This document shows, one piece after another, positions 1 through 26,335 of a DNA stretch of 30,563 nucleotides. Source of the stretch: a virus. Location of the stretch: the IMG/VR virus record IMGVR_UViG_3300009000_000029, positions 1-30,563 of that record. The stretch is one strand, 5' to 3'. Positions within the stretch are counted from its first letter, which is position 1. Every line of letters starts with the position of its first letter. A program made the position numbers and the translations under genes. The notes beneath the pieces were generated by a model. The model did no database searches, had not been told where the DNA came from, and saw nothing but the letters and a program-made list of their open reading frames with translations.

Positions 1-2460
1 GGAGTTACAGAAGGTGTTACTGAAGGTGTAACGGAGTTTGTTGGTGTAACTGAAGGAGTAACGCTCGGAGTAACGCTTGGCGTAACTGAGCTGGTAGGTG
101 TTATTGAAGGAGTAACGCTTGGTGTTACTGAAGGTGTAACACTTGATGTAGGAGTAATCGATGGAGTAACTGATGGAGTAACTGATGGAGTAACACTTGA
201 TGTAGGAGTTACACTTGGAGTTACAGAAGGAGTAACGCTTGGAGTTACACTTGAAGTAGGTGTAATCGATGGAGTAACACTTGATGTTGGTGTTACACTA
301 GGGGTAACACTAGGAGTAACAGAAGGTGTTACACTTGATGTAGGAGTAACGGAAGGTGTAACTGAAGGTGTAACTGAAGGAGTTACTGAGCTAGTAGGAG
401 TTATACTAGGAGTAACTGAAGGGGTAACGCTAGGTGTGACGCTTGAAGTAGGGGTAATACTTGGAGTTACCGATGGTGTAACGCTTGAAGTAGGGGTAAC
501 TGATGGGGTAATGCTCGGTGTTACACTAGGGGTAACAGAAGATGTAGGTGTAATTGAAGGTGTAACACTTGGAGTTACACTAGGTGTAACAGAGCTTGTA
601 GGAGTAATACTCGGAGTAACTGATGGAGTAACTGAAGGAGTTACCGAGCTCGTAGGAGTGATGCTCGGAGTAACAGAAGGTGTAACGCTAGGTGTAACAG
701 ATGAAGTTGGAGTAATCGATGGAGTAATCGAAGGGGTGACACTCGGAGTAATAGAAGGTGTTACAGAACTAGTAGGAGTAATACTTGGCGTAACTGAAGG
801 AGTTACGCTAGGTGTTACAGACGGTGTAACACTTGAGGTAGGGGTTATACTAGGAGTCACCGAAGGAGTAACAGAAGGTGTTACTGAACTTGTTGGTGTA
901 ATCGAAGGTGTAACACTAGGAGTAACGCTAGGAGTAACAGAGCTCGTAGGTGTTATAGATGGTGTTACTGAAGGAGTAACACTCGGTGTTACTGAGCTAG
1001 TAGGTGTAATCGATGGAGTAACGCTCGGAGTAACGCTTGGAGTTACTGAGCTCGTTGGTGTTACAGAAGGCGTAACACTAGGAGTTACTGACGGTGTTAC
1101 TGAAGAAGTAGGAGTTATACTCGGAGTAACACTTGGCGTAACGCTCGGGGTAACCGAGCTAGTAGGAGTGATGCTTGGTGTAACAGAAGGTGTAACGCTC
1201 GGGGTAACAGAGCTCGTAGGAGTGATGCTTGGAGTAACAGAAGGAGTAACGCTCGGAGTTACAGAGCTCGTCGGGGTGATTGATGGAGTTACGCTTGGTG
1301 TAACTGAAGGTGTAACCGATGAAGTTGGAGTTATACTTGGTGTAATCGAAGGAGTAACACTTGGAGTTACGGATGAAGTTGGGGTAATCGAAGGGGTAAT
1401 TGATGGAGTTACACTTGGAGTAATCGAAGGTGTGACACTCGATGTAGGTGTAATTGATGGCGTAACACTAGGAGTTACTGACGGTGTTACTGAAGAAGTC
1501 GGAGTTATACTCGGAGTAACACTTGGAGTAACTGAAGGTGTAACCGAGCTAGTAGGAGTGATTGAAGGAGTAACACTTGGAGTGATTGACGGTGTGACAG
1601 AAGGAGTAATCGATGAAGTTGGAGTTACGCTTGGTGTAACAGAAGGCGTTACTGATGGTGTTACTGAGCTAGTAGGAGTAATCGAAGGAGTTACTGAAGG
1701 TGTTACAGATGGTGTTACAGAGCTCGTAGGAGTGATTGACGGTGTTACAGAAGGTGTTACAGATGGAGTTACTGAGCTAGTTGGAGTTACGCTTGGTGTA
1801 ACAGAAGGTGTTACAGAAGGAGTAATCGATGAAGTTGGAGTAATCGAAGGTGTTACAGAAGGAGTAACTGAAGGCGTAACACTTGAGGTAGGTGTAATAG
1901 ATGGTGTAATAGATGGTGTTATAGAAGGAGTAACACTTGGAGTAACTGAAGAAGTAGGAGTTATACTCGGAGTAACAGAAGGCGTTATTGAGGGAGTAAC
2001 ACTTGATGTAGGTGTTATACTCGGAGTAACTGAGGGAGTAACAGACGGGGTTACTGAGCTAGTGGGGGTAATAGACGGTGTTACGCTAGGAGTAACTGAA
2101 GAAGTTGGAGTTACGCTAGGGGTTACGCTCGGTGTAACGGAAGGAGTAACTGAACTAGTAGGGGTAATAGAAGGCGTTACGCTAGGAGTTACTGATGGTG
2201 TAACAGTTGATGTAGGTGTTATACTTGGTGTAACGCTAGGAGTTACCGAGCTCGTTGGAGTTATTGATGGTGTTACACTAGGAGTTACAGAAGGTGTTAC
2301 AGAACTCGTAGGCGTTATACTCGGCGTAACAGAAGGTGTTACAGATGAAGTTGGAGTGATCGATGGAGTTACACTTGGAGTAATTGAAGGTGTAGGTGGC
2401 GGTGGTGTTACACTAGGTGTAACTGAAGGTGTAGGAGTCGGTGTAGCGCTTGGAGGGGTA
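1..2460 (-). repeat. 12-nt tandem repeat with 54-nt higher-order period
   Basis: The DNA is built of degenerate 12-nt units, each coding for Ser-Val/Ile-Thr-Pro. Every fourth unit or so is followed by an extra 6 nt coding Thr-Ser, giving a 54-nt (18-residue) super-unit. Variants of 42 and 66 nt differ by exactly one 12-nt unit. By eye there are roughly 35-40 super-units. Third codon positions vary freely, so exact DNA identity between copies is short. There are no unique spacers between copies. Confidence 0.9.
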
Positions 2461-2474
2461 GGAGTTACAGACAT
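1..2474 (-). CDS. Ser-Val-Thr-Pro repeat protein, 3' end outside window
   Basis: An open minus-strand frame starts at an ATG at 2474-2472 and stays open to the left edge, about 824 codons without a stop. Apart from a short N-terminus ([17 protein letters not shown]) everything visible is S-[V/I]-T-P tetrapeptides, grouped into units of about 18 residues such as [18 protein letters not shown]. There is no globular domain, signal peptide or membrane segment; any folded domain must lie beyond the window. The minus frame is chosen because every substitution is silent or conservative there, while the plus-strand reading of the same DNA swaps Glu, Leu and Asp. The frame is the same as that of the upstream 982-aa gene but is separated from it by TAA-TAG and then a TGA at 2480-2478. 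No late promoter or Shine-Dalgarno sequence is visible, so the start is uncertain. It may be a second fibre stalk, or a part split from the upstream gene. Function unknown. Confidence 0.6.
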
Positions 2475-2504: not shown

Positions 2505-5453
2505 TTATGTTGGAAGTGGGGTTGATGCGCTTGGTGTAGCAGAAGGAGTAGCTGAAGGTGTTACACTAGGTGTAACGGAAGGAGTTACAGAGCTAGTAGG
2601 AGTAATACTTGGTGTTACACTAGGTGTAGCTGAAGGTGTTACAGAGCTAGTAGGAGTAATACTTGGTGTAGCAGAAGGTGTAACGGAAGGTGTTACAGAG
2701 CTAGTAGGAGTAATACTTGGTGTAGCAGAAGGAGTAGCTGAAGGTGTTACAGGTGGTGTAGGTGGTGGTGATACAGCTGGTGTAGCGCTTGGTGTAGCGC
2801 TTGGAGTAATCGATGGTGTTACGCTAGGAGTAACACTAGAAGTAATCGATGGTGTTACGCTAGGAGTAACACTAGGAGTAACAGAACTAGTAGGAGTGAT
2901 TGAAGGTGTTACTGATGGAGTAGGTGACACTGGTGGCGATACCGGCGGTGTTACAGATGGTGTTACAGATGGTGTTGCAGAGGGTGTTACAGATGGTGTT
3001 ACAGATGGTGTTACAGAGGGTGTTACAGAAGGTGTTACAGAAGGTGTTACTGATGGAGTAACAGAGCTCGTAGGTGTCGTAGTTGGTGTTGGTGTTTGTG
3101 ATGCACCTGGCGTATATGTAACACTTGGCGTTACGGAAGGTGTAATACTTTGTGTTACTGAAGGTGTTATAGATGCTGTAGGTGTTACACTTGGTGTAAC
3201 TGAAGGAGAGCACTCAGGGAAAGGATTAATAGGGCTAAGCACAACGCGTCGTAGTTGTTCAAATCTACGAGAGACATCACATAGAAACTCATCAGTTATT
3301 CCACAAGATAAGGTGTAGAAAGGGCATCCGACAAATACTTCCCAATCGGCTGCTGAAGTTGGAGCGTATATAGTAACTTTAAGTCGTGATGTATCTGTAT
3401 CTTTATAAATAGAACTTGTTGCTGTAGTCAATGAGCTATTAACATAAGGATAACCATCTGGTGCAAGAGCAATTGGTGGATAGCTCGCATACTTTAAGGA
3501 ACTTTCTAGACCTGTAGTAAAGCTACTCCTTAATGCACCACCGTAATTCCAAGTTTCGTTACCAACAAACCCTGTATCTAATCGGATAATATCATCGTAT
3601 GTATAGACAAAACGATATGGGTTTACCGGTGTACTCCATTTTAAATCAATATCACCAATATAAGCAGACATTCCATATAAAATGGTATGTTCAAATATAC
3701 CTGGGTAATCAGACCCGAGAGTAGTTAAATCGCATGTATTATCCGGGCAACCGATATTTGGCTCCATACCTAAAAACGGTAATGTAGGTGTATCTTCGAA
3801 AATTGGAGGTTCTTGTGGTACAGGTCCGGTTGTTGTATTGTTAATTGCGAAAGCTGTTAGTGGGGTGAAGGTAAACTCACTTTCATTAGTTTCAGCACTA
3901 TTACCTTCAACATGAAATCCAGTCGTCACGATAACACCATTAGTATTAGAACTCGTAAGCGGTTTAACGAATGAAACTCCCGGTCTATAACGTGTATCTG
4001 AATATACATCAATACCAGTTAACTCCTGCGTAAGGAGTTGTGTGTAGAAAGTATCTGTTTCATTTTTATAATCAACAACAATCCTACGCCCATAGTTTCC
4101 AAGACGCGCTCTTATTGTTTTCTTTCCAGAACTAACCAAATCAAAAGCACTGATTGCTTGTGTTGTGATTACGTTAAAATCTTTATCTCTTACAGTAATG
4201 CTATTAGGCGCATATGATACACCTGATCGAGTAGGTCCATCAGTATAAATAAGTTCTGATGCAAAGACACCAAGACTATCAAATCCGATACCTAATACTG
4301 GCTTATTAAGTGGTTGTGAGGATAATGATGCAGAGAGAAGAGTATTACCAGTAAATCCAAGATCAGGTCCAACACCACCCCCGCTCAATGGATAGTTGGC
4401 GTCCTGCAAAAACATGCAATATCCAAATTCATCTCCAGATGTATACGCACTAAGCTCGTAAGTGAACGACCATGTTATATCGTATTGTGGAGACATACCC
4501 TCTTCAAATATCTGCACTGATACAGCGGATAGAGGTAGCTCTGTTGGGTAGTTGTAAGCAGATCGGTAATTAGTAAAGCCAGTTAAATTAAATTGTGTAG
4601 CCGTATAGCCAGTACTAACACCCGCATCAGCATCTGCATCCTCAATCAACCTATTGAGATCATTAATGTTGCGTAGATTGCCAAAAATATCAAGATCATT
4701 TGTTGTACTTACAACGCCGAAAAGTACGAGTTGATTATCAACAATAGCCATCATTGGCGAGCCAGAGTCACCAGGAATCAATGGTTCGTGCCAAAGTAAA
4801 GCATCACCACCTATTGGACTTTTAAAACCTGCACTAGCATTACCTGCAGTATCGTAATCGTTAGGAAAATCGTCATTAAACTGCCTGAAGTTAATGTAGT
4901 TCATTCTATGAACAAGCGACTTCTCTTCTTGATCAGTTGATACAACAAGTGCATCATTTATAGCAGCATATGCTGATGATGTAAAGATATCCGTATTTAT
5001 ATACTTATAGAAATCTGTAGGGAAGATAGGTAGAGGTTCAATAGCAGCAGGTAGATCAGAGTCGAATGTAACGACCATAAAATCACCGTATGGTACACCT
5101 AAACCAGTGGCTGCAGTACCCGATACCGTTCTTGTGTAGACGTTATTGTCTCTATCCCAAAAGTAAAAAATGTTACCTACTTGTGCTGATGCGTGAAGAG
5201 CAAAAACAGCATGTCTTGGTGTAATAAGAGCACCACCTAAAATAGTACCATCGACATAGCCACCAAGTGTTCGGTTGTTGAGAGGTGGTATACCAGTAGA
5301 ACCGGAGAGACCATACATCCAGTTATCTGTATTTCTTGTCATTGCTGACAATGTAGGGTAGTTATTAAACATCTCCTTATCGGTAGATGCATCATAACCG
5401 CTAATAGCTGTGAGTACAGAATCGGAAAGTGTATTTTTAAGGTCTCTCGCCAT
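2505..5453 (-). CDS. virion protein with trypsin-like serine protease domain and SVTP-repeat stalk
   Basis: 982 aa. Residues about 60-260 look like a chymotrypsin-fold protease: [16 protein letters not shown] gives a His at 87 in the place of the TAAHC motif, YGDFMVV gives Asp124, and IPGDSGSP gives Ser230, so order and spacing of the triad fit family S1. Residues about 300-540 are beta-rich, with a stretch around 345-400 (FLQ, SGGG, LGF, then [11 protein letters not shown]) recalling lectin or ConA-like folds; that is tentative. Residues 560-745 are unassigned and hold several Cys. From about residue 749 to the end the chain is S-[V/I/A]-T-P repeats. There is no signal peptide, so it is more likely carried on the virion than secreted. 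It is the last recognisable gene of the fibre block, after the collar proteins, which suggests a host-surface role. A pseudo-protease with only structural function remains possible. Confidence 0.8.
2508..3209 (-). repeat. SVTP repeat region of the protease gene
   Basis: This encodes residues about 749-982 of the protease protein. It has the same 12-nt units and TPTSS breaks as the block at 1-2460, but is less regular: Ala replaces Val in many units, and there are interruptions with [17 protein letters not shown] and YTPGASQTP. It is probably related to the neighbouring block by duplication. Confidence 0.85.
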
Positions 5454-5479: not shown

Positions 5480-7102
5480 TTACACTCCCCACTCAAACTT
5501 AACAAGACCGTCTGCAGTATCATTTGATGTGCCAGCATGGCCTCCCCCACCTGCACCTGCAACACTATCAGAGCCCCAGAAGGAAGCAGTACTACTAACT
5601 TCTTCACCTCCATCACCGTCAGTATCCCAACCACCACGGCCACCTTCAATAACATGACCACCGAGAATGTAAGCTGACTCACCTCCTGCAAGGCCTGTAC
5701 CATTTGTTGAAAGATTACCGGTATTAGTAGTACCATCAGGTACTGTCCCACTAGTTTGAAATTCAGCACCAACTGATCTTGCAAGTTCCGTACCACCAAT
5801 AGAAATGTAAGAAGGTTCGCCATCTGTATCATTTGTTGTAATACCAGGAGCAACAAAGTATTTAACGTCAGTACCGATGGGGGCTGAAAGAACACCTGTA
5901 ACTGTAGCAGCAGCACCACCTGTACGTGTACCACCTTTAGCACCAGACCCTGTAATCCAGAACTTTGTATATGTTGCTTTTGTCGTAAATGTTGATAGTA
6001 CAGCAGTAGTTGTGTCAAACACTGCAACTCCGGGTACTGGTGTAGAAATTACAACATTATCTTCAAACGGATCAAAAGACTCACCTTCTATTACTGCAGT
6101 ACCATCTGTAGTTGCTTGTAAATTACCGCTTAATGTAAATGACGGTGTTGCAACTGTGTCTGGTAGTGCTTTAATAAAGAATGTTACCGCTTTAGCGCTT
6201 AACCCGCTTGTACCAGTGTCTAAATGGTATTCTGTCCCACCTACAGGGTTTGAATTAACTCCATATAAAACCGAATCTTCGTAATCAGGTAAATTGAAGT
6301 TTACATCATCACCACCATATTGCGAGCCAATAACAGCAGATAAGTCGCGGTAATCAGCTCCTGCTATTGACTGACCATTACAAAGCAAATATCCACTAGG
6401 TACGCTTGATCCCGAAGCAACAGGTATAATAGTTCCAACGGGAATAACAGATGAAGAGTTAAAGTAGACAGTAGCATTTGCTTCTGGAGTGGTCCATTGG
6501 AGATTACCATTAGCATCTGAACGTAAAAATACATTAGCACCGCCTAGACCACCAACAGGAAATTGATAATCAACATTGTTAATGTTAATATTCTGTGGTA
6601 ATTTAAGGTGTGAAACTGAATGAGCAGAAACTCTATCTGTTTTAATTTGCGTACTACTTAACGAGATCTTAGTATTGCTAAGATCAATTGAATTACCTAA
6701 CGCATTAACAGAAACATTAGCTCCAGAAATTGTACCGACTGAAATAGTACCGTTACTATCATCGATATCAATAGTAGTATCACCAGCCTCTAAAATACGA
6801 CCAGCTGATAACCAAGTAGACTCTTCGGTGAGTACGTAAAATATATTACTCGTAGATTCAAATGCATAATCTCCTGTAATAGCGTCTGTAATAGTAGAAA
6901 TATCTGTAACTGACCCCTTCCATTTATTACCTACAACTATACCACCGGCAGTTTGACCATCTCCTACAAACAGACGTTTACCATCAGTAGTGTACCCTAA
7001 CTCACCTTCTGATAAGGTAACATTAACGCGATCTAAATTATCACCACGACGGACAAGTAATTTAAGAAGGGTGTTTTCGAGAATTTCGATTTTTTTAGCC
7101 AT
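5480..7102 (-). CDS. tail fibre protein with collar domain and glycine-rich C-terminus
   Basis: 540 aa. The N-terminus (residues about 15-60: VRRGDNLDRVNVTLSEGELG, then GYTTDGKRLFVGDG and TAGGIVVGN) matches the short fibre-attachment module also present in the next gene and resembles the N-terminus of major tropism determinant proteins. Residues about 219-280 form a phage tail collar domain (PVGTIIPVASGSSVPSGYLL, CNGQ, QYGGDD, NLPDY). The C-terminal 155 residues are rich in Gly (GSGAKGGTRTGG, GAGGGGHAG), like the glycine-rich tip domains of phage adhesins, and are the likeliest receptor-binding part. The upstream sequence has only a weak late-promoter-like CTAAAAATA. No reverse transcriptase or template repeat accompanies it. 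The role as a distal fibre is inferred from domains and place. Confidence 0.8.
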   Translation of the reverse strand: MAKKIEILENTLLKLLVRRGDNLDRVNVTLSEGELGYTTDGKRLFVGDGQTAGGIVVGNKWKGSVTDISTITDAITGDYAFESTSNIFYVLTEESTWLSAGRILEAGDTTIDIDDSNGTISVGTISGANVSVNALGNSIDLSNTKISLSSTQIKTDRVSAHSVSHLKLPQNININNVDYQFPVGGLGGANVFLRSDANGNLQWTTPEANATVYFNSSSVIPVGTIIPVASGSSVPSGYLLCNGQSIAGADYRDLSAVIGSQYGGDDVNFNLPDYEDSVLYGVNSNPVGGTEYHLDTGTSGLSAKAVTFFIKALPDTVATPSFTLSGNLQATTDGTAVIEGESFDPFEDNVVISTPVPGVAVFDTTTAVLSTFTTKATYTKFWITGSGAKGGTRTGGAAATVTGVLSAPIGTDVKYFVAPGITTNDTDGEPSYISIGGTELARSVGAEFQTSGTVPDGTTNTGNLSTNGTGLAGGESAYILGGHVIEGGRGGWDTDGDGGEEVSSTASFWGSDSVAGAGGGGHAGTSNDTADGLVKFEWGV

Positions 7103-8802: not shown

Positions 8803-10767
8803 TTAAATTTCTATAATACCTCCAACAGTATATGACCGTTGTACTGAAGTATCAACATCCGGTTGCACAAAATTAATTAATCTGGTCTGCAGCTCGTAAA
8901 TCAACTTAAAGCATCTGTTTAAAACACCATTAAGGTTTTCTTCATTACCATGTATATAGAAATTTTCGATTTCTTGTGTTATAAATTTATCAAACTCTAC
9001 GTTATAATTATAGTCATCAAGCTCTAAAATGTCATTATTATAGGATCCTGAAAATCTACCAATAATATTATTTTTAAGAGTTAAAACATCGTCGATAAGC
9101 TTATAAATTTCCAAATTAATAATTGATTGCTGTATAAATCCATCCGGATTTAATGAAAATCCTTCGCTTCCATAGTTAGGGTAGTTAACATCTTTTAGTA
9201 CTCTTTGATATGATGTAGTTATAGGCTCGTCAAAGAAATAAAGACGGCCATTCGTTAACATATAAGTCTTATCATAGCTACTAGTAGATTGGAAAATTGA
9301 GAAACTATTAATTTTAGAATCAAGCAATCCAGTAACTTGTTCTGTGGCAGCAGCCTCCCCAAATTGAGTACCTAAATTCCAAATAAATTGTGCTTGAGAA
9401 AAATTAATGTCATTGAAATTCCAGCGATTATTAATAGTTATTGGGTCAGTAGCAACTTCAATTGTCTCATCCGTAAAGTTTAGAAGATATAGACGCTCAG
9501 TACGGTACTTACCAATAACTTTAGTTGGTCTGGTTTTAAACTTTTTATAGACAGTTTTATTTGTGGCAAAATACCAGTAGTTACTGTCAGTACCCGAAAA
9601 GGTTATATCAACTATTTCTTCATCAAGAGCTAATTTATCGTCTAAAACAATTTCCTCTTTAAACCTAAAGTTATCACCACTAAAGCGATATAAGGTTGTT
9701 ACACGATTGTTAATATCATTAGTAGTTACATCCTTATAAGTTAAAATATATAACGATCCGAAGTCTGGATCGAACCCCATAGCACCTAATGTCTCTACAT
9801 TAAAGTTAATGGATGTAATACGGGTGATATAGTTAAATTCTTCATCAAAAAGCTTAACTACTTTATTTCCAGAATCAAAAACAGCTACAGTATCGGGATT
9901 TACTGCTAATTTGGTTGGCCTTATAAATTTAGTTTGCCGTCTAGCATCTCCATAACCACCGACGAGCTCAATATAGTTACGCTTATTCCTAAGAGAACTA
10001 TCATTGTTAACGTACCCAGCAATATCGTATCGAAGTACTACATTATTACCAGTATCTTAAAGAAACAGATATTTACTTGTAGATGCAATTCCACCTAGCT
10101 CTTTAAATGATAAATTATTTTCTTCTGTCGTTTCGTAACCAGTTGTATCCTCTATAACTGTTAAATCGGTATTCGAACCAGTAAGGCATATAAGATCAGA
10201 AGATGTGCAGACAAACAAAGAGAATTTATCATCAAAATCTAAATTAGTTTGAGCAGTAGCTCCTACAACATATCCAAATGCACTTAAATAGTGACTATTC
10301 TCAAATCTAATATTGTCTACAAACTGTGGGGTTTCTGTATCCGATGTTCTTATTTCAAACGCTGTTAAAGTATTAGAAGAGAGAGATGCATATCTCAATG
10401 ACTCCGTATATGGTAGCTTATTAGAGGAGATAAATAAGCGTGAGTAAACAAACGTATTATTCTTCCGTAAATTATCTAATTTAAATTTAAATAAATCGTA
10501 ATTAAAATTATCGTTGAGATTAAACGTGCAATCGTCTATAGTTGTTGGTAGTGATATTTCTATATCACTAATTACCCGATCTGTAAAATCATTAGTAAAA
10601 AATAAATCAGTGGCAAAAGTATTTTTAGAAGATAAAGCCTTACCAGTTGTTACCTCTCGTGCAACCCCATCTACTGTTTCTGCAAAGCCGTAAAAATCCG
10701 AGCCTGTAAGTGTAAATAATTCACCAGAGGTATAAACTTTTTTATATGAAGTATAATCAGTAATCAT
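8803..10767 (-). pseudogene. beta-propeller virion protein interrupted by in-frame TAA
   Basis: One reading frame covers the whole interval but is broken by a single TAA at 10059-10057, after 236 codons. Coding continues in the same frame for 417 codons to the stop at 8803. The stop falls inside an NHL-like beta-propeller motif: before it GGIASTSKYLFL, directly after it DTGNNVVLRYDIAGYV. The codon missing at the stop would normally be a small residue (Ala, Ser or Thr), and TCA to TAA is one base change. Later propeller-like strands include TKLAVNPDTVAVFDSGNKVV and FDPDFGSLYIL. The next ATG after the stop is at 9780, too far inside the propeller to be a natural start. It lies 3 nt from the 1113-aa gene and is probably co-transcribed with it. 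Alternatives are a sequence error, a population variant, or stop read-through. Confidence 0.8.
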
Positions 10768-23576: not shown

Positions 23577-23619
23577 AAATGTTTTGGGGTAGCAAACACT
23601 TGTTAAAGGCATTTGAAAA

Positions 23620-23627
23620 TATAAATA
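23620..23627 (+). promoter_or_regulatory. perfect T4 late promoter TATAAATA
   Basis: TATAAATA followed by GCCGT and the ATG at 23633. It is an exact match to the T4 late consensus with the same 5-nt spacer seen at other genes, and this decides the start of the next gene. Confidence 0.75.
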
Positions 23628-23632
23628 GCCGT

Positions 23633-25000
23633 ATGAGCAGTAATACAAATGTAAGTTGGCCAAAGTTTAAATATCTTGATGGTAAGATTGAAGGTAATCT
23701 CACTAAAACTCGTACACTAGGCTTGGATGACTTTAATGTTATTCACTCATTAGGTTATAAGTCTGACTACCATATAACTACAGATACAACACAAAATAAC
23801 ATAACTAGGCAAGAAGTTGGCTACAAAGGTTTTATTGGTAATGTGCATGCATCAGACGGGTATACATACTACCTACCCGCTTACTCAACTTCTTTAGGTA
23901 AGTTAGAGAGAAGCACGGGTAAGATTACATTAGAGAATAAATTTTCTATTGTACCGCAAGTTCGATCTGGAGCTGAAGGTGCTAATGGTATTATCTACAT
24001 GCCATCATATACTAAGACATTAAAAATTTATACATATAATACTAAAACTGGTGAGGTTGGATTGATAACTCCACCGCAGCCAGGTTATTATGGTCATGTA
24101 TGGGGAGCAGCAGCTGATAAGAACGGTAATGTCTATATGCCACCAGCATTGAGTAAAAAAATTCTTAAGATAGATACTCAAGGTGAAGTTTCAATACTAC
24201 AAGGAGGTCCAGTTACCTCTGGTGTATCTGGGTTTGATGTTAAGTATGTAGGTGCTACTTATGTTGAGAGCGTTAATAAAGTATTCTGCTTACCTAGATG
24301 CGGTAAAAAGATTTTGGTTATAAACTGTGCTGATGATAGCTACGAAGAAATTGATTTGCCAGCGGATTATCTGGCAGTAGCTAATAAAAATAAAAACTTC
24401 CATGGCTACTTAGCCCCTGATGGTTGGCTTTATAGCGCCTTCTGGGCTGATACTAAATGCTTTAGGATCAACCCTAACACATATGAAATTCAATGGAAGG
24501 ATTATAGTGAGGAGTTTATGGATGGTAAAGATACTATCGAAGAAGCTTCTGGTATTATGAATATAGGTACAGGATTTACAACAGCTGCCATTACAGTAGG
24601 TGATAGTGTATATTTCGGGTTAGCTGGTACTTCTAAAGCAGTTAAGTTAGAATTTGAGCCTTCAGTTGCTAAATTATCTAAACCGATAAATAATGGTATG
24701 AGTGAGATTAAAATCAATAGTAATGACCTTACACCCGGAATTAGAAATTTGATGGGTGCTTTACTAGCTACTGATGGTGATAAAGAAATTACAATTACTA
24801 TTTCTAATGAAGATGTGCAAGCAGCACCAATCCCTTCACCATCTTTAGTTTGCCCTACTCCAATGGCAAGTCCAAGCCCTTCATACAGCTGCGCAAATTA
24901 TTGCACCTGCAGTAACTGTTATTGCCCAACAACTACATGCTATTGCAGTTGTAATGTCTGCACAAGCTGGTGTCCAACTAATACCTGCTGTTGCTGTTAA
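23633..25000 (+). CDS. beta-propeller protein with Cys-rich C-terminal tail
   Basis: 455 aa from the ATG at 23633. An in-frame ATG 54 nt upstream is less likely because the TATAAATA element lies between the two. Residues about 60-370 show repeated blades of the YncE or PQQ-like kind: ANGIIYMPSYTKTLKIYTYN, ADKNGNVYMPPALSKKILKI, VNKVFCLPRCGKKILVINCA, APDGWLYSAFWADTKCFRIN. Then follow a short beta region, a Pro/Ser linker (PIPSPSLVCPTPMASPSPS) and a tail of about 37 residues holding 14 Cys, mostly as CxC and CxxC, ending TNTCCCC. No signal peptide is seen. Such a tail could bind metal, form disulphides or be lipid-modified; none of this is shown. A late virion or host-contact role is inferred from the promoter and the lysozyme next to it. 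Confidence 0.75.
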   Translation: MSSNTNVSWPKFKYLDGKIEGNLTKTRTLGLDDFNVIHSLGYKSDYHITTDTTQNNITRQEVGYKGFIGNVHASDGYTYYLPAYSTSLGKLERSTGKITLENKFSIVPQVRSGAEGANGIIYMPSYTKTLKIYTYNTKTGEVGLITPPQPGYYGHVWGAAADKNGNVYMPPALSKKILKIDTQGEVSILQGGPVTSGVSGFDVKYVGATYVESVNKVFCLPRCGKKILVINCADDSYEEIDLPADYLAVANKNKNFHGYLAPDGWLYSAFWADTKCFRINPNTYEIQWKDYSEEFMDGKDTIEEASGIMNIGTGFTTAAITVGDSVYFGLAGTSKAVKLEFEPSVAKLSKPINNGMSEIKINSNDLTPGIRNLMGALLATDGDKEITITISNEDVQAAPIPSPSLVCPTPMASPSPSYSCANYCTCSNCYCPTTTCYCSCNVCTSWCPTNTCCCC

Positions 25001-25615: not shown

Positions 25616-26335
25616 TTAGAAAGAACGTGTAAGAGAAATACCCCCTACAAATTCAAATCCATCATTAGTCCAGATACCTCCACGATCATCAAAGGTGTGA
25701 ACACCTTTAACAAATGGTGTAAGAGAAGTATCAAGGATACGTACTGGTAGGTCTGGAAGATTTGCAACCAACTCAACATGAGTCAATTCAGTCTCTTCAA
25801 GAAGATAACCAACACTAGCTACTGCACTAATTCCACTTACAACTTCGCCTAGGTCAACAGTTACTTCACCGTAACCGTCATTATCACCATCAAGGGCAAT
25901 ATATTGTGCTAAGGTGACAGTACCAAACGAGAAGTTCTTAGCAATACCAACACCAAGCTCGGATGTGACATCACCAACAACATTCGTACCTTCTGAGTAG
26001 TAGTTAAGGTCTGCAAATGCGGTAAATGCACCAATAAATGGAGCATCTAAACCGTAAGAACCACCTACAGTAAACTCAAGCTCTTCCTGCAAATCGTTAT
26101 CACTAAGTGCAAGAGTAGCAAAGGCTGGGAACCCGACAAAATCAAGGCCTGTGGTTGCCTCAAGCCGGACATCATTATCCCCTTGATTCTGACCACGCCA
26201 AATATCTTGGGTGCTGTATGTACCAGTTACTCCAACTCCAAAGTTTAGGTCAGTTGCGACACTACACTCTGAAGCACTTCCTGCAGTAGCAATACCTACT
26301 GCAGCCAACATTGTCAATACGATTGTTTTCGTCAT
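25616..26335 (-). CDS. phage-encoded outer-membrane beta-barrel protein, TorF/Gcw_chp-porin-like
   Basis: 239 aa. Residues 1-22 are a Sec signal peptide (MTKTIVLTMLAAVGIATAGS then ASE), with likely cleavage after the Ala/Ser run. The mature part has alternating hydrophobic beta-strands, GVGVTGTYSTQDIWRGQNQG near its start, which resembles the S-D-Y-x-x-R-G motif of TorF/Gcw_chp putative porins, and it ends GGISLTRSF with the terminal Phe required for outer-membrane assembly. It would be exported by the host and inserted by the BAM machinery. It has a perfect TATAAATA late element and a hairpin after it, so it is its own late unit. Possible roles are nutrient uptake, superinfection exclusion or help in release; the sequence does not decide. 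Family assignment is by eye. Confidence 0.75.
   Translation of the reverse strand: MTKTIVLTMLAAVGIATAGSASECSVATDLNFGVGVTGTYSTQDIWRGQNQGDNDVRLEATTGLDFVGFPAFATLALSDNDLQEELEFTVGGSYGLDAPFIGAFTAFADLNYYSEGTNVVGDVTSELGVGIAKNFSFGTVTLAQYIALDGDNDGYGEVTVDLGEVVSGISAVASVGYLLEETELTHVELVANLPDLPVRILDTSLTPFVKGVHTFDDRGGIWTNDGFEFVGGISLTRSF

Follow-up and report, generated by a model that had tools for sequence, protein, structure and literature searches.

A predicted chymotrypsin-fold protease fused to a lectin-like tail-fibre protein in a metagenomic phage: a candidate enzyme of surface proteolysis

What a phage would do with a trypsin-like protease placed at the end of its fibre genes is the question raised by a viral record of 30,563 bases, analysed here over its whole length (the window) and probably a fragment. 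Its source is a contractile-tailed phage from a metagenome. Because the nearest counterparts of its gp6-like protein (~24-30% identity) and of its clamp loader (~40%) belong to T4-type phages of cyanobacteria, Pelagibacter and others, it appears, by sequence, to be a relative of the T4 superfamily to which no named phage comes close. An earlier note had picked out in it a 982-aa open reading frame carrying the residues of a serine protease triad, H87, D124 and S230. This frame, 2505-5453, is found on the minus strand with the three residues at these positions, and the plus-strand reading of the same interval contains stops throughout; plus-strand frames over 1-2490 and 2896-3318 were discarded as mirror readings of SVTP repeats. 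The protein is composed of four parts, with borders set by comparison with relatives, and its protease and its SVTP tail stand at opposite ends of the chain, separated by a lectin-like domain and a second domain that extends to residue ~745:

2505-5453, minus strand: whole gene of the protease-lectin-repeat protein (982 aa)
4584-5453, minus strand: chymotrypsin-fold serine protease domain, residues ~1-290, with H87, D124 and S230 and no Cys (AlphaFold2 model, Z to chymotrypsin, conservation)
5193-5195, minus strand: codon of catalytic His87 (invariant, 38/38)
5082-5084, minus strand: codon of catalytic Asp124 (invariant, 38/38)
4764-4766, minus strand: codon of catalytic Ser230 in GDSGSP (36/38)
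4920-4934, minus strand: family signature DQEEK, residues 174-178 (D174, Q175 and K178 each 36/38)
3894-4550, minus strand: L-type-lectin-like domain, residues ~302-520 (Foldseek and VIA-align to legume lectins; low-confidence model)
3219-3893, minus strand: second conserved domain, residues ~521-745 (conserved in the module alignment; low-confidence model)
2508-3212, minus strand: Ser/Thr/Pro (SVTP) repeat tail, residues 748-982 (sequence repeats)

The placement of the gene at the end of the fibre genes was likewise borne out. It closes a structural block that comprises gp25-like and gp6-like baseplate wedge proteins, a PKD-domain protein, a Gp10_C-like protein and two Mtd_N proteins, one of them with a tail collar domain, and it is the last gene of this fibre/baseplate block before a gene made of SVTP repeats. 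In the nearest relative, the contig L001, the counterpart of this repeat gene holds a LamG (Laminin_G_3) lectin domain between its repeats. Three other genes of the window will be needed in what follows:

5480-7102, minus strand: Mtd_N plus tail-collar protein, a fibre (domain match)
3-2474, minus strand: next gene downstream, with SVTP repeats, at least 824 aa, running off the contig (open reading frame)
23579-25000, plus strand: Cys-tailed propeller-like protein beside the tail lysozyme, without protease (comparison with relatives)

That the N-terminal domain is a trypsin-like serine protease, as the earlier note proposed, is strongly supported by its model and by its alignment, both of which point to a chymotrypsin-fold serine protease with the His-Asp-Ser order. 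AlphaFold2, provided with the family alignment, builds a chymotrypsin double barrel (pLDDT 90.6, pTM 0.90), and no alternative fold came out. Foldseek recognizes this model as chymotrypsin-like at E 1e-8, while VIA-align superimposes 186 residues on chymotrypsin at 3.0 Å (Z 16.2) and returns Z≥8 for 998 of 1000 chains. His87 (..FALHASAQ..), Asp124 (..YGDFMVV..) and Ser230 (..PGDSGSPMM..) lie where they should with respect to the strands and rank with the best-conserved residues; their order, with G-D-S-G around the serine, is kept in the family. As this holds across an alignment whose mean column identity is 34%, chance resemblance does not account for the motif. With the alignment later enlarged to 38 distinct homologues, His87 and Asp124 are the same in every sequence, Asp229, just before the catalytic serine, is found in 37, and Ser230 in 36; the serine is absent from a contig that stops short of it and from a sequence of a rumen metagenome-assembled genome (MAG), L169. 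R40, N59, G74, H81, E223, D229 and P233, together with DQEEK, are as fixed as the triad or nearly so in these 38 sequences, and the recurring signature of the family reads TPRH.....H, a D, DQEEK, then E....GDSG[NS]P. E223, which precedes the serine by seven residues, may be close to the base of the specificity pocket, and Arg or Lys at P1 would then be a candidate preference. The ratio dN/dS of the domain between the window and L001, ~0.23, indicates purifying selection, and the window copy is apparently intact.

The relationship with known trypsins is more distant than the fold might suggest. In plain sequence searches of Pfam, NCBIfam, PHROGs and the PDB the window protein has no match as a protease; it stays below the gathering cut-off of the Pfam family PF00089 (Trypsin), and phmmer finds no match in the PDB for the protease domain alone. 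The phmmer matches of the whole protein in the PDB, mainly low-complexity segments such as circumsporozoite repeats, were rejected because they stem from the SVTP tail. The profile built from 29 members of the family, with no known trypsin included, reaches bacterial trypsins of the PDB at E 9e-5, and one homologue, L138, passes the Pfam Trypsin model (23.1 against a cut-off of 20.6). Since the window protein has no match though L138 passes, we place it near PF00089, not in it. With peptidase S1 (clan PA) it shares the double barrel, the order of the triad, the GDSGxP motif and the profile match to bacterial trypsins; it differs from PF00089 by an N-terminal extension, by the lack of a visible activation site, and by a signature of its own (R40, N59, H81, DQEEK and E223). 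Secreted animal trypsins carry conserved disulfides, and those of the animal S1A type are activated from zymogens, their new N-terminus pairing with Asp194. The window protein has no cysteine in residues 1-308, hence no disulfides such as Cys42-Cys58; the equivalent of Asp194 is the conserved Asp229.

How did such a domain come to stand in front of a fibre protein? The module that follows it was found at nine loci, of which eight have no protease and begin their protein at MDYPTDLPLSAV..., equivalent to window residue ~302, the ninth being the contig of L001, where the protease is present. In the protease-less loci the module is 82-91% identical to that of the window, and it is followed by the Ser/Thr/Pro tail where the contig reaches. 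As relatives begin this protein directly at MDYPTDLPLSAV, without a protease, these sequences are most simply explained by the addition of the protease ahead of a fibre gene that already existed. Residues ~302-520, the first half of the module, are modelled as a beta-sandwich resembling the L-type (legume/ERGIC-53) lectins, with VIA-align Z 13.6 to legume lectins and plant lectins making up 50 of 50 among the Foldseek matches listed. The mean pLDDT of the module model is 42, mostly ~30-70 in the lectin-like part, and, unlike L-type lectins, the module has no sequence-family match, so that we take the low-confidence sandwich as a lead rather than a result, and the domain as possibly sugar-binding. 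The predicted fold of the middle module as a whole falls below confidence, including that of the second domain, which is conserved among module relatives.

The C-terminal SVTP repeats described in the earlier note are there, over ~235 residues. The idea that they present the protease on a stalk gains no specific support from the comparison: the protease lies at the other end of the chain, and the same tail is borne by protease-less homologues and runs throughout the next gene. For this reason the tail is a general feature of the fibre proteins in this phage group, not tied to the protease, and whether the protease is displayed outwards depends on which end of the protein is fixed to the virion.

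Ten aligned homologues, used to scan for further members, led to 39 viral loci, and another scan to five bacterial ones. Among the phages related to that of the window the domain appears in four settings. It is the N-terminus of the lectin-like protein in the window and in L001. In G015, G019, G021, G022 and G034, some of them cut by contig ends, it is the N-terminus of a separate Ser/Thr/Pro-containing protein of ~1,500 aa encoded directly after a stand-alone module gene. It is the C-terminus of a ~1,130-aa Ser/Thr/Pro protein in G027 and G031, and it is found inside the Cys-tailed protein beside the tail lysozyme gene, called propeller-like from a reading of its repeats by eye, in G003, G005, G036 and G006, the last cut off by its contig end. 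The protease of G036 sits in this propeller-like protein, its lectin-like protein having none. Finally, G029 and G038 possess both carrier genes, and no protease was found anywhere on their contigs. This led us to drop the idea of exactly one protease per phage and, judging from these sequences, makes the domain dispensable.

A maximum-likelihood tree sets the fibre-block proteases apart from the propeller-carried ones, with several branches fully supported, and the grouping of both main carriers in a single clade is rejected (p-AU 2e-60). The phages whose gp6 is most similar to that of the window (~84%) carry a more distant protease (32-40% to the window), whereas phages at 74-75% in gp6 carry a closer one (~51%). 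Given this mismatch, the rejected clade and the protease-less relatives, the domain is most likely accessory and was acquired more than once, at least twice, in related phages. Between the window and L001 the protease has diverged by 17% and the module by 3%. Rapid evolution of the protease alone was set aside, as dS too is about twice that of the module (0.44 against 0.22); a different history, by recombination, is the likelier cause.

The family extends to other carriers. The 1,454-aa protein of L136 (2877-7241) begins as a baseplate-wedge protein (PF23786) and carries the protease as an insertion at about residue 380; in L150, L157 and L148 the protease accompanies proteins that resemble, by eye, LamG-like lectins or the N-termini of tail fibres. 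Podovirus ct3Et533 (MW202510.1) encodes in its tail gene block a protein, UOF78081.1, that has a protease of the same family at its C-terminus, and that differs from the protein of the window by another N-terminal domain, the lack of an SVTP tail and an identity of ~28%. The member in L138 lies outside an obvious fibre block, near genes judged by eye to be neck- and terminase-like. Further members were found in MAGs of Bacteroidales and Kiritimatiellae. Two adjacent genes resembling the protease family are visible in L150 (4999-6210 and 7524-8822), each after a tail-fibre-like gene, the second being met again in contigs of 84-159 kb. The Bacteroidales homologue in L167 (7872-9062) has a signal-peptide-like start and scores weakly against Por_Secre_tail (19.2, below the cut-off of 27), which suggests a secreted bacterial relative.

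Virion enzymes that clear the way to a receptor are known mainly as depolymerases degrading polysaccharides. The present distribution resembles that of accessory depolymerases, and the comparison with tailspikes is natural, since there too a modular accessory enzyme sits in the tail-fibre block and is coupled to binding modules; with a protease fold in place of a beta-helix glycosidase or lyase domain, ours would be an analogue, not a member. A virion-associated peptidase is on record, that of Bacillus phage phiNIT1, which is directed against a poly-gamma-glutamate capsule (PMC5380687). The earlier note knew of no well-studied T4-type phage with this arrangement, and for the fibre fusion this stands: no named precedent for a fibre-fused phage protease of the chymotrypsin fold was found in the open-licence papers searched. 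It does not stand for the enzyme as such, as the T4-superfamily phages phiM9 and P10VF were reported to encode a trypsin-like protease (PMC10783043). The likeness ends with the annotation: the phiM9 gene stands alone (230 aa), beside the major head protein gene, fused to no fibre, and its membership of our family was not supported, profile comparison giving no match.

We can therefore ask which role would best account for a protease of this kind, and several have to be considered together. Since its gene lies within the fibre block, and since the domain directly precedes the lectin-like module in the fusion, close to where that module normally has its start codon, the enzyme could cleave itself or adjacent fibre proteins as these assemble, and in this way free the lectin part or activate other fibres. 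Such a maturation protease, which would agree with the processing of other fibres imagined in the earlier note, would be expected wherever the fibres occur, yet close relatives with the same fibre block lack it (G029 and G038 share the lectin-like module and the fibre genes, with no protease found on the contig), and the domain is also met at C-termini and in unrelated carriers; we hold this role to be unlikely, though the protein may still free its lectin part by cutting itself. More doubtful still is a protease that would act inside the host or on the way in, injected and directed at a defence or regulatory protein, its position in the fibre block being incidental. Members outside an obvious fibre block (L138) and the stand-alone gene of phiM9 speak for it; against it, many members are fused to lectin-like, propeller-like or baseplate proteins, and the PADLOC families returned no informative match (best E 0.027 over 46 residues), a value so weak that a link with defence systems was discarded. 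Finally, the fold could be that of a pseudo-enzyme, retained as a binding domain only, as the rumen homologue devoid of the serine might hint. Binding alone would not require that the triad and the Asp before the serine be among the most conserved positions, and we regard this as very improbable.

A conserved enzyme that comes and goes, switches carriers and was captured independently in the vicinity of adhesins argues for surface proteolysis in preference to fibre maturation. The reading that we favour, with a rough probability of 0.55, starts from the computed fold, the conserved triad, the fusion with the module, the accessory and repeatedly captured distribution and the linkage with fibre and baseplate genes; we infer that the enzyme is present in the virion and active, with a surface substrate and a role in adsorption. 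The gene product would be an accessory tail-fibre or adhesin protein made of an N-terminal protease, a lectin-like binding module and a flexible Ser/Thr/Pro tail. Its lectin-like part would bring the virion to the cell surface, where the protease would cut a host surface or extracellular protein, such as an outer-membrane protein, an S-layer, a pilus or a matrix glycoprotein, during adsorption, and this cleavage would clear the way to the receptor as polysaccharide depolymerases of tailspikes clear the capsule. We give about even odds to the broader proposal, according to which these would be virion-borne serine proteases of a family not described before, swapped by tailed phages between adhesins and baseplate proteins, and the proteolytic counterpart of capsule depolymerases. 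Were surface proteolysis to be true, phages would also remove or trim proteins of the host surface during adsorption, with a bearing on host range and on the resistance of hosts that have protein surface layers or shed glycoproteins. The idea lends itself to direct tests, thanks to the family signature and to pairs of closely related phages of which one has the domain and the other lacks it.

Other features of the window may be recorded here. An in-frame TAA at 10057-10059 (minus strand) breaks up a gene whose counterpart in L001 (L001:2682-4646) is one uninterrupted frame of 654 aa, leaving in the window a frame of 236 aa and, 92 codons later and in the same frame, one of 325 aa; this is either a point nonsense change or a sequencing error. 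The propeller-like protein of the window, 23579-25000 (plus strand), ends with a Cys-rich tail (SCANYCTCSNCYCPTTTCYCSC...) and has no match in the phage collection. At 25616-26335 (minus strand), a 239-aa protein with a signal-peptide-like start resembles, by eye, a bacterial outer-membrane protein, with no match in Pfam, and a gene of the same size adjoins the protease gene in G027 and G031.
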